From assembly GCF_000712295.1 (NCBI RefSeq), contig NZ_JMKI01000034.1, forward strand, positions 144-53,615: 53,472 bases of DNA, read 5' to 3'. Positions 31,836 to 34,879 of this stretch are shown in pieces (position 1 is the stretch's first letter; every line of letters starts with the position of its first letter). Origin of the DNA: Synergistes jonesii. GTDB lineage: Bacteria > Synergistota > Synergistia > Synergistales > Synergistaceae. The notes below the pieces were generated by a model, which saw only the letters and a list, made by a program, of their open reading frames with translations, was not told where the DNA came from and ran no database searches. The translations under genes were made by a program, and so were the position numbers.

Positions 31836-33512
31836 TTAACCGCGCCGCGCCCGATGGTGCACCGCGCGGTATAAAACCGCGCCGCCCGGATAGACGGAGA
31901 CGTTTTCGAAGCCGTGCTGCGCCAGTATGCGCGCTGCGGTGTAGGCGCGGGCGCCTATCGCGCAGAGTATTATTATTTCGCCGCCGCGATATTTTTCCAG
32001 TTCGCCGAGTCTTTCGCGCAGCTTGCCGAGAGGGATGTGCAGCGCGCCGGGCGCCTTATACGCTGCGAGCTCGCGTTCTTCGCGCACTTCGATAAGAAGC
32101 GCTTCGGGGTTCCTCTCCATCTCGTCCCACGGGCAGAAGCGGACGAGCCCCGCAAGGAGATTTTCCGCGACATATCCCGCCATGTTGACGGGGTCCTTCG
32201 CGGAGGAGAAGGGCGGCGCGTAAGCGAATTCCAGTTCCTTCAGGTCGCCGACCGAAGCCCCGAAGCGCATCGCGGCGGATATCGTGTCTATGCGCTTGTC
32301 GGCTCCGCCTCCGACGGCCTGCGCGCCGAGGATGCGCCTGTCTTTGAGCGAAAACACCAGCTTGAGCGTCAGCGGTGTCCAGCCCGGATAGTAGCCGGCG
32401 TGCGATTTCTGCGCGATTATCAGGCTTTCGTAGTCGCGCCCCTTTTCGAGCCCCAGCTTTTGCAGCTTTTTCTCGTTCATACCTGTCGCCGCCGCGGCGA
32501 GGCCGAAGACGCGCGCGATCGAAGTGCCCTGCGTGCCGCCGTAGCGCGCGCCGACACCCGCGATGTTGTCCGCCGCCACTCTCCCCTGCTTGTTGGAGGG
32601 GCCGGCGAGAGGGATCATCGCGCGCCCCTTCATGACGAACTCCTCGACCTCGGTCACGTCGCCGACCGCGAAAATGCAGGGGTCGGAGGTGCGCTGGGCC
32701 GCGTCCGTCACGACGCCGCCGCGTTCGTTCACTTTTAGCCCCGCGCCGCGCGCGAGTTCACAGTTCGGGCGCACGCCGATCGACAGGATCGCCAGCTGCG
32801 CGCCGACGCTCTTGCCGCTTTTGAGCTCCAGCAGGACGCCGCCCGCTTCGTCGCGGAAAGAGGAGACCGCGTCGCCAAGGATAAGTTCGACGCCGGCGTC
32901 CCTGATTCTCTCGTGGAGCAGTTGCGCCATCTCGAAGTCGAGCGGCGTCATCACCTGATCCAGCGCCTCTATAAGCGTGACCTTGACGCCGGCCGCGTGC
33001 AGATTTTCTGCGGTCTCCAGCCCGATGAAGCCGCCTCCTACGACCACCGCGCTTTCGATACTCTTCTGCTCTATCATCGCTCTGATGCACTCGGCGTCCT
33101 CCACCGTCCAAAGCGTCGCAACGCGCGGCGAGGTTATACCGGGGATGTCGGGGCGCAGCGGCGAAGAGCCCGTGGCCAGCACCAGCGTGTCGTAACTTTC
33201 CTCGTACGTCCGGCCGCTTTGCAGCTCTTTGACCGTCACCCTCTTTTTCTTCCTGTCTATAGATACGACTTCGCTGAGCAGTCGCACGTCGGCCTTGAAT
33301 CTGTCGCGCAAGAACTCCGTCTTCAGCACGAGCAGCGCGTCGCGCGACTCGATCTCGCCGCCGACGCGGTAGGGCAGGCCGCAGTTCGCGTAGGAGACGT
33401 GCTCCCCGCGCTCGAAAATGATTATCTCGGCCTCTTCGTCGAGTCTGCGCAGCCGTGCCGCGCAGCTCGCGCCTCCGGCGACGCCGCCGACTATCAAAAC
33501 TTTTTTGTTCAT
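31836..33512 (-). CDS. CoA-disulfide reductase-like flavoprotein fused to rhodanese domain
   Basis: 558 aa. FAD Rossmann motif IVGGVAGGASCAARLRR, redox Cys44 in YANCGLPYRVGG (single active Cys, as in CoA-disulfide reductase and NADH oxidases), NAD motif VVGGGFIGLETAENL, FAVGDVTEV, then a C-terminal rhodanese domain (~460-558) with catalytic Cys517 in LCAIGARAYTAARIL. Fused proteins of this kind reduce CoA-disulfide, CoA-persulfide or polysulfide with NAD(P)H and handle sulfane sulfur. Start ATG follows GGGAG. Monocistronic. A palindrome at 33596-33610 may regulate it. Confidence 0.88.
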   Translation of the reverse strand: MNKKVLIVGGVAGGASCAARLRRLDEEAEIIIFERGEHVSYANCGLPYRVGGEIESRDALLVLKTEFLRDRFKADVRLLSEVVSIDRKKKRVTVKELQSGRTYEESYDTLVLATGSSPLRPDIPGITSPRVATLWTVEDAECIRAMIEQKSIESAVVVGGGFIGLETAENLHAAGVKVTLIEALDQVMTPLDFEMAQLLHERIRDAGVELILGDAVSSFRDEAGGVLLELKSGKSVGAQLAILSIGVRPNCELARGAGLKVNERGGVVTDAAQRTSDPCIFAVGDVTEVEEFVMKGRAMIPLAGPSNKQGRVAADNIAGVGARYGGTQGTSIARVFGLAAAATGMNEKKLQKLGLEKGRDYESLIIAQKSHAGYYPGWTPLTLKLVFSLKDRRILGAQAVGGGADKRIDTISAAMRFGASVGDLKELEFAYAPPFSSAKDPVNMAGYVAENLLAGLVRFCPWDEMERNPEALLIEVREERELAAYKAPGALHIPLGKLRERLGELEKYRGGEIIILCAIGARAYTAARILAQHGFENVSVYPGGAVLYRAVHHRARRG

Positions 33513-33644: not shown

Positions 33645-33674
33645 TTAGAAAAACCACGCTTTTCAGCGACGACC
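33645..33674 (+). repeat. Left copy of imperfect direct repeat flanking the toxin-antitoxin cassette
   Basis: About 30 bp beginning TTAGAAAAACC and ending TTTTCAGCGACGACC. It matches 34720-34748 at 25 of 29 positions with one extra A. Each copy also contains an imperfect palindrome GAAAA...TTTTC. Confidence 0.6.
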
Positions 33675-33727: not shown

Positions 33728-33756
33728 TTGAAAATATATGTTAAAACATATACAAT
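33728..33756 (+). promoter_or_regulatory. Promoter with internal operator for the MntA-HepT-XRE operon
   Basis: TTGAAA (33728-33733), 17 bp, TACAAT (33751-33756). The spacer holds a perfect palindrome, TATATGTT-AA-AACATATA (33735-33752), placed where a bound repressor excludes polymerase. The XRE protein encoded third in the operon is the obvious candidate. Confidence 0.75.
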
Positions 33757-33788
33757 GTGGCGTGAGATAAAAATAAGGAGGAGCCAAA

Positions 33789-34115
33789 GTGGTTTACACG
33801 ATCGACGAGTTGCGCGAGTTTATTGAGCCGATTGCCAGAAAATACCGGCTTCGCGCGGTATACTTATTCGGTTCCTACGCTAGAAATAATGCCACGGATT
33901 CCAGTGATGTGGATATTCTGGTAGACAGAGAGGGCTCCGTTATCCGCAGCATGTTCGACATGGGCGGGCTATATGCCGATCTGTGCGACAATATCGGCAG
34001 GGAGGTCGACCTTGTCACAACGCAGACATTAGAACAAAAAAGCACACAAGAACGGATGCCGTGGTTTGTGGATAATTTGCAGAAAGAAAAGGTCAAAATT
34101 TATGAACAACGGTGA
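33789..34115 (+). CDS. mntA: MntA-type minimal nucleotidyltransferase antitoxin
   Basis: 108 aa, GTG start after AAGGAGGAG. Catalytic motif GS-X10-D-X-D is exact: Gly28-Ser29, Asp40, Asp42 (GSYARNNATDSSDVDILVD). Known for the family: MntA inactivates HepT by adding AMP to a tyrosine near its active site. It overlaps the hepT start by 14 bp, which is usual for coupled pairs. Confidence 0.9.
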   Translation: MVYTIDELREFIEPIARKYRLRAVYLFGSYARNNATDSSDVDILVDREGSVIRSMFDMGGLYADLCDNIGREVDLVTTQTLEQKSTQERMPWFVDNLQKEKVKIYEQR

Positions 34116-34461
34116 TCGCCAAAGACTTCTGCATATTCACAGGTATTGCCAAGACATTGCGAGATTTGTTGAGAGATTCGGCAAGGATTATACGACGTTC
34201 GTCGAGGATAGAGCCTACCTCAGCGCGGTGTCAATGTGCGTTCTCCAGATCGGCGAATTAGCAAATGGGCTCTCCGACGAGTTCCGCGAAGAGACAAAAG
34301 ACCAGATGCCATGGGGAATGATACGCGGTATGCGAAACTGGATAGCGCATGCGTATGCGGAAATGGATGAAGCCATCATTTGGGAAACCGCTATAAATGA
34401 TATTCCCAGGCTCCTCCACTTCTGCGACAGCCTTTTGGAGACGGGGGAGGACAACCAATGA
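34102..34461 (+). CDS. hepT: HepT-type HEPN ribonuclease toxin
   Basis: 119 aa from ATG 34102 (MNNGDRQRLL); a longer frame upstream lies inside mntA. All-helical HEPN/DUF86 fold with the RX4HXY motif Arg78-NWIA-His83-A-Tyr85, where Arg and His are RNase residues and Tyr is the AMPylation target. LQIGELANGLSDEF is also typical of the family. Its stop overlaps the start of the XRE gene by 4 bases. Confidence 0.9.
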   Translation: MNNGDRQRLLHIHRYCQDIARFVERFGKDYTTFVEDRAYLSAVSMCVLQIGELANGLSDEFREETKDQMPWGMIRGMRNWIAHAYAEMDEAIIWETAINDIPRLLHFCDSLLETGEDNQ

Positions 34462-34697
34462 GCGCCGCGATGACAATTGACGAAGAATTAAAAGTTGAGC
34501 ATGAGATAATTCAATCCCTGGTCGACGCCCGGAAGGCAAACGGGCTCACCCAAAAACAACTCGCGGAAAAGACGGGGATCACTCAGTCCGACATAAGCAA
34601 GCTGGAAAACGGCGGCGCAAACCCGTCGCTTCGTACGCTTCGCCGGCTTGCGGCCGCTCTGGGTATGCGGGTCAAGATCGAATTCGTTGCCAGGTAA
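34458..34697 (+). CDS. XRE/Cro-family transcriptional regulator in the MntA-HepT operon
   Basis: 79 aa. Helix-turn-helix DARKANGLTQKQLAEKTGITQSDISKLENGGANPSLRTLRRLA in the centre, resembling HigA-type antitoxin regulators, with the C-terminal strand MRVKIEFVAR. ATG overlaps the hepT stop (ATGA). MntA-HepT pairs usually lack a third gene, so this may be an added autorepressor acting on the palindrome at 33735-33752. Confidence 0.87.
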   Translation: MSAAMTIDEELKVEHEIIQSLVDARKANGLTQKQLAEKTGITQSDISKLENGGANPSLRTLRRLAAALGMRVKIEFVAR

Positions 34698-34719: not shown

Positions 34720-34748
34720 TTAGAAAACCGAGCTTTTCAGCGGCAACC
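34720..34748 (+). repeat. Right copy of imperfect direct repeat flanking the toxin-antitoxin cassette
   Basis: Begins TTAGAAAACCG and ends TTTTCAGCGGCAACC. It lies 22 bp past the XRE stop, about 1.07 kb from its partner at 33645. Could be the trace of insertion of the cassette or a shared regulatory or structural element. Confidence 0.6.
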
Positions 34749-34814
34749 ATACTATTTTATGGGAGTCCGGCAGCACGCGCATTCTCTTCTTCTGTGATGA
34801 CTTTATTTATATGC

Positions 34815-34850
34815 TAAGGTGAAGCGGCCGAGGCCGGCCGCTTCACCTTA
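34815..34850. terminator. Strong hairpin between the toxin-antitoxin and citrate operons
   Basis: Perfect 16-bp stem TAAGGTGAAGCGGCCG / CGGCCGCTTCACCTTA with loop AGGC. It lies 29 bp after the citF stop on the - strand. Neither flank has a good T run, so it may act as a bidirectional terminator or protect the 3' end of the long citrate-operon mRNA. Confidence 0.6.
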
Positions 34851-34879
34851 GAGGTTTGTGGTATTTTCGAAAAATCCGT

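Follow-up and report, generated by a model that had tools for sequence, protein, structure and literature searches.

Among the described toxin–antitoxin systems, the HepT/MntA pair of Shewanella oneidensis (SO_3166/SO_3165) and the HigBA systems with a Gp49-type HigB, such as that of Streptococcus pneumoniae (PDB 6af3/6af4), stand closest to a three-gene operon of Synergistes jonesii, located in a stretch of 53,472 nucleotides (hereafter, the window) within a genome of 60 contigs and 2.74 Mb. In S. oneidensis, MntA (SO_3165) is reported to shift its own promoter in EMSA experiments, promoter activity is reported to rise 1.6-fold in the deletion mutant, and two palindromes are described near the −10 and −35 elements of that promoter (PMC4621449). 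In S. pneumoniae, β1, α1 and α2 of HigA are described as touching HigB, and S57 of HigA is given among the DNA-contact residues set from NMR titration (PMC7984235). A further point of comparison is the Xre-MNT system of Streptococcus suis, in which an XRE protein is reported to autorepress an operon with a nucleotidyltransferase gene—an arrangement predicted for the window as well. Unlike the window, however, the S. suis system is described in that account without a HEPN partner and with the MNT protein as the toxin (PMC8406773).

The operon in the window shares with the Shewanella pair the antitoxin–toxin order, the GSX10DXD and RX4HXY motifs, the PF01909/PF01934 families and the HepT fold, but differs from it in the sequence of HepT (about 15% identity in a structural alignment), in the length of MntA (108 aa vs 139 aa) and in its additional XRE gene, accompanied by a predicted HigA-type operator in the promoter. 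With the HigBA systems, including the one that this genome itself carries (locus L054), it has in common an XRE protein encoded after the toxin gene, and the promoter/operator layout resembles that of L054. In contrast to HigBA, mntA-hepT stands in place of the HigB gene and the XRE protein is devoid of the N-terminal HigB-contact segment.

All three genes lie on the forward strand. The first, mntA (33789–34115, GTG start), encodes a minimal nucleotidyltransferase antitoxin; hepT (34102–34461, ATG start) encodes a HEPN RNase toxin, by family, of 119 aa; and xre (34458–34697, ATG start) encodes a protein of 79 aa that, judged by its sequence, is a HigA-type Cro/CI repressor. The preliminary description had stated that all three genes overlap and that the catalytic motifs are intact, and both statements were borne out: mntA and hepT overlap by 14 nt and hepT and xre by 4 nt (ATGA), while the MntA motif (G28-S29-X10-D40-X-D42) and the HepT motif (R78-X4-H83-X-Y85) are strongly conserved in alignments, with G28, S29, D40, D42 and D74 invariant across 80 MntA sequences, H83 and Y85 invariant across 37 HepT sequences, and R78 kept in at least 90% of the latter. 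GGAGG-like ribosome sites precede mntA and xre, and the xre reading frame is intact. MntA scored 41.6 bits against Pfam NTP_transf_2 (cut-off 21) and 46 bits against Polbeta, and HepT 65.9 bits against HepT-like PF01934 (cut-off 23.5). When the AlphaFold model of HepT (pLDDT 91.5) was compared with solved structures, HEPN/HepT toxins and YutE, a relative of theirs, filled the first 12 places (Z 8.5–12.8, 107–116 residues aligned); the best eight entries reach Z 11.1–12.8, with 12.8 to 7ae8_C and 12.2 to 6m6u_G, and the next unrelated row stands at 8.5. Two points call for caution: the fold is a helical bundle, and the Foldseek E-values for the same protein are weak (best, 0.031). Neighbouring PF01934 and PF01909 genes, both motifs and the HEPN fold correspond to class I of the HEPN/MNT pairs, whose motifs and classes we take as defined in PMC7641770. 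The scores against the NCBIfam type VII equivalogs fell below the cut-offs, at 45.3 of 60 for MntA (NF047752) and 24.5 of 60 for HepT (NF047751), and the pair is therefore left outside these equivalogs. HepT is presumably toxic, and MntA would AMPylate it.

In two genomes of the same genus, an EamA-type gene comes about 140 nt after citF (both genes named by eye); between these two genes, the window has a CoA-disulfide-reductase-like gene (31836–33512; name taken from the sequence, without a family call) and the mntA-hepT-xre cassette. The base composition of the cassette is unremarkable (49.3% vs 52.5%; rank 372 of 1051 windows). A 25-nt direct repeat on the forward strand flanks it, with the left copy at 33650–33674 and the right copy, 84% identical, at 34724–34748. 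We considered this repeat as an insertion scar and rejected the idea: since the flanking copies are only 84% alike and two further copies occur in the genome (L051 and L052, near position 1509, all four on the forward strand of their contigs), it is treated as a dispersed repeat, and its link to the operon is uncertain. Between xre and citF, a perfect 17-bp inverted repeat with a 4-nt loop (34814–34851) probably serves as the citF terminator. A different mntA-hepT pair is found directly after citF in another genus of the family (L004:1095–1830), where it is oriented the other way with respect to that gene. A search for a recent mobile carrier of HepT in phage records, plasmids and viral contigs found none: relatives occurred in 5 of 50,697 phage records and 1420 of 72,556 plasmids, every one below 60% identity, and in viral contigs the HepT protein query gave no match and the HepT alignment one distant match.

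The third gene sets this operon apart from the other mntA-hepT pairs examined. Its product scored 64.1 bits against Pfam HTH_3, its second-best match in the PDB—behind a designed protein—is S. pneumoniae HigA (6af3_B, E 3.2e-8), and it is 65% identical to the HigA encoded by the second gene of the L054 HigBA operon, where the partner is a Gp49-type HigB. That operon itself is located between integrase-like (phage) and transposase-like ORFs (L054:178–1014 and 1900–2499; named by eye, no family call). In Synergistota, the XRE protein and its relatives occur at 22 places, the window among them, and 13 of these have a HigB-like gene alongside. The same holds for 5/7 and 7/8 places in two sets from Clostridia and for 8 of 80 loci on viral contigs, the majority of those 80 being distant. 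Beside hepT or mntA, by comparison, no relative was found outside the window (0/88 and 0/84, the two sets sharing contigs). As for membership in HigBA, a HigA-like XRE with a predicted promoter operator is present, going by sequence, and a HigB (RelE/Gp49) gene beside xre is absent; because the gene upstream of xre is hepT and not a HigB gene, we do not file the operon as HigBA. Moreover, alignment shows the N-terminus of the XRE protein to be about 14 residues shorter than that of related HigA proteins: residues 15–72 align to chain positions 30–87 of 6af3_B, so that the protein begins after β1 and most of α1. With part of the HigB-contact segment missing, the XRE protein most likely acts in this operon only as a repressor.

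A candidate target for such a repressor is found upstream of mntA. The operon is preceded on the forward strand by a σ70-type promoter, TTGAAA-17-TACAAT (33728–33756), with 10 of 12 consensus matches and a geometry as in the promoters of the HigBA relatives; its spacer holds the predicted XRE operator TATATGTT-AA-AACATATA (33735–33752, without strand). This element had been described as a perfect 18-bp palindrome between −35 and −10, which is correct for the 8-bp arms, whereas the central AA is non-palindromic and the element extends 2 nt into the −10. When the 150 nt upstream were shuffled 2000 times with dinucleotides preserved, 11 of the shuffles contained an inverted repeat with 8-bp arms (spacer 0–6) at any position. 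The exact operator sequence has one copy in the 2.74-Mb genome. The own-genome HigBA operon presents TTGATA-A-TATAGGATAAATCCTATA-TAATG in the same place where the window has TTGAAA-A-TATATGTTAAAACATATA-CAATG, and the half-site TATATGTT of the window recurs as the left half of the operator in the HigBA operons L139 and L175, both of which, with a GITQ recognition helix, carry Thr. We then scored the self-complementarity of the 18 bases whose end lies 2 nt inside the −10. In this register, 14 of the 36 HigBA promoters formed six or more of the eight pairs (the other 22 fell below or had no promoter call). None of the 79 promoters from related mntA-hepT pairs did so, a control that includes four XRE-MntA fusions and L059, whose inverted repeats, where seen, occupy other registers.

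The recognition helix and the operator also vary together. The sample consisted of 43 non-redundant HigBA operons, 29 with a recognisable GI.Q start of the recognition helix and 14 without; an anchored site of at least 5 pairs was present in 20 of the 29, and L139 (7 pairs) and L161 (by eye) were added by hand, giving 22. Such an operator was absent in 7 of the 29 GI.Q operons, namely L166, L167, L168, L176 and L257 (Ala, GIAQ) and L171 and L256 (Thr, GITQ). Across the 22 operons, base 5 of the half-site was G with Ala (12/12) or Asp (2/2) and T with Thr (6/6) or Pro (2/2) as the residue after GI, with which the recognition helix begins. This association has a Fisher p of 3.1e-6, a value that overstates independence, because some of the operons are related to one another (L177, L178, L179 and L181 being near-copies). 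In S. pneumoniae HigA, the residue at the aligned position is S57. The window, left out of the count, has Thr (Thr42) in the helix and T at base 5 and thus obeys the rule, so the XRE protein and the palindrome match. Together with the HigBA operator geometry, this covariation supports the view that the palindrome is the site of the XRE protein, and comparison with HigA-type relatives likewise supports the proposal that this protein adds transcriptional autoregulation—two suggestions made in the preliminary description. The rule also bears on cross-talk between HigA-type repressors: none would be expected between the XRE protein of the window (Thr, TATATGTT) and the HigA of the same genome (Ala, TATAGGAT).

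We read the best 80 of 218 HepT relatives in Genome_contigs, among which the nearest belong to gut Clostridia (80% identity in a Blautia MAG, L059, and 71% in Geosporobacter); within Synergistota, the best four reach 45–55%. In a HepT tree of 46 rows, the window falls among sequences from Bacillota with L059 as its nearest neighbour, but the fork has poor support. A class I HEPN/MNT pair of Clostridial type is part of the explanation that we favour below. In two loci, hepT is broken into two open frames while mntA is still open (L096:2501–2848 and L098:1931–2285), and three Synergistota copies of hepT (L349, L353 and L356) have one in-frame stop each, which suggests turnover of mntA-hepT pairs.

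A survey of mntA-hepT loci for the third gene, as had been proposed at the outset, yielded no other pair with this downstream gene among those examined, but four fused XRE domains in 79 relatives and one upstream XRE gene. In the family of the organism, HepT occurred in 10 of 52 genomes, and this XRE gene was present in the window only among the 14 loci returned; in Synergistota (30 of 185 genomes, 30 loci returned), an HTH gene was detected in the window alone; and this type of XRE was found near none of the best 80 of the 218 Genome_contigs relatives. Searching with the XRE protein itself does not reach the HTH_26 type, for which a home-made HTH profile is broader. That profile, which misses 2 of the 4 fusions that Pfam detects, found HTH genes in 10 of 121 HepT loci: the window, L059 (upstream), L083 and L093 (fused) and six that are not operon-adjacent. 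A Pfam scan of 137 of 143 flanking frames from 120 loci (six short ones excluded) gave HTH_26 once and HTH_3 in two members among the matches listed, one of the two HTH_3 members being identified as L059. In the fusions, detected with Pfam in gut bacteria, an HTH_26 domain precedes MntA and hepT follows (L081:1939–2508, L082:1834–2508, L083:1987–2508 and L093:370–897), and all three with a visible promoter (L081, L083 and L093) have a CGG..CCG inverted repeat in the −35/−10 spacer. In L059, the Blautia MAG with the nearest HepT, a separate HTH_26 XRE gene (L059:1515–1730) overlaps the mntA start. These loci resemble the window in tying an XRE domain to a related mntA-hepT pair, but differ from it in that their domain is HTH_26, fused or upstream, whereas that of the window is HigA-type and downstream. 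Counting the downstream gene, there are therefore three arrangements or more in which XRE domains are tied to such pairs. No second operon with the gene order of the window was found, and the case for the three-gene unit accordingly cannot draw on conservation.

On the evidence of sequence comparison, we consider it probable that a HigA-type autorepressor and its operator control a class I HEPN/MNT pair here, mntA-hepT occupying the position of higB. The main alternative to this explanation is that MntA, alone or with HepT, is the repressor on the palindrome, with xre a passenger or acting elsewhere. Because Shewanella MntA is reported to bind its own promoter, the XRE protein may not be the sole candidate binder, and the Shewanella gel shifts, the 1.6-fold derepression and the two palindromes of that promoter (PMC4621449) all speak for MntA. 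The preliminary description had called the pair one normally controlled by AMPylation, which is too simple, since in Shewanella MntA reportedly binds its promoter and represses it weakly (PMC4621449) and XRE is fused to MntA in some Clostridial relatives. Against MntA as the repressor stand the 79 related mntA-hepT promoters without this XRE, none of which has the site in register while HigA-type promoters do, the covariation of the XRE helix with the site, and the lack of any DNA-binding family match for MntA in Pfam; we regard this alternative as quite improbable. A small but somewhat better chance falls to the XRE protein as a second antitoxin, binding HepT or HepT-bound MntA and coupling toxin level to transcription (conditional cooperativity), as in HigA/HigB. 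The order of toxin gene and then XRE gene, as in higB-higA, fits this idea, and HigA is reported both to bind DNA and to neutralise HigB (PMC7984235, PMC6987408). However, the XRE protein is without β1/α1, with which HigA makes some of its contacts to HigB; the Pfam families of HepT and HigB differ; and MntA is already there as an antitoxin. Finally, the juxtaposition could be due to chance, with a decaying orphan higA behind a mobile mntA-hepT pair and without a role in it. That the case is the only one known, and that the cassette sits between genes adjacent in same-genus genomes in a region with a dispersed repeat, would agree with chance; yet the xre frame is intact, this gene has a good ribosome site and starts within the last 4 nt of hepT, and the matched operator lies upstream of mntA and not directly upstream of xre, all of which makes this the least credible reading and a very unlikely one.

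Under the favoured explanation of a pair with its own HigA-type autorepressor, one transcript would start from the promoter at 33728–33756 and be translated into MntA, then HepT and lastly the XRE protein. HepT would be an RNase toxin, which MntA would neutralise by adding AMP to Tyr85, beside the active site, and a dimer of the XRE protein on TATATGTT-AA-AACATATA in the promoter spacer would block RNA polymerase and stop transcription. In promoter layout, operator and XRE, the regulation would follow that of HigBA operons, in which higB has the place taken here by mntA-hepT. HEPN/MNT pairs, HigBA and XRE autorepression are each known already; their combination appears to be new, as our literature searches returned no published XRE/HEPN-MNT three-gene unit. 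We further propose, tentatively and as a rather doubtful extension, that a regulatory unit of promoter, operator and XRE was swapped between unrelated kinds of toxin–antitoxin system, with mntA-hepT presumably replacing higB, and that the XRE protein reads the state of the AMPylation pair, e.g., via un-AMPylated HepT. If true, post-translational and transcriptional control would be joined in one three-component circuit. HEPN/MNT pairs are very common and their transcriptional control is poorly known; the window offers a candidate regulator in cis with a predicted 18-bp operator, while relatives of the pair gained an XRE domain on MntA by other routes.
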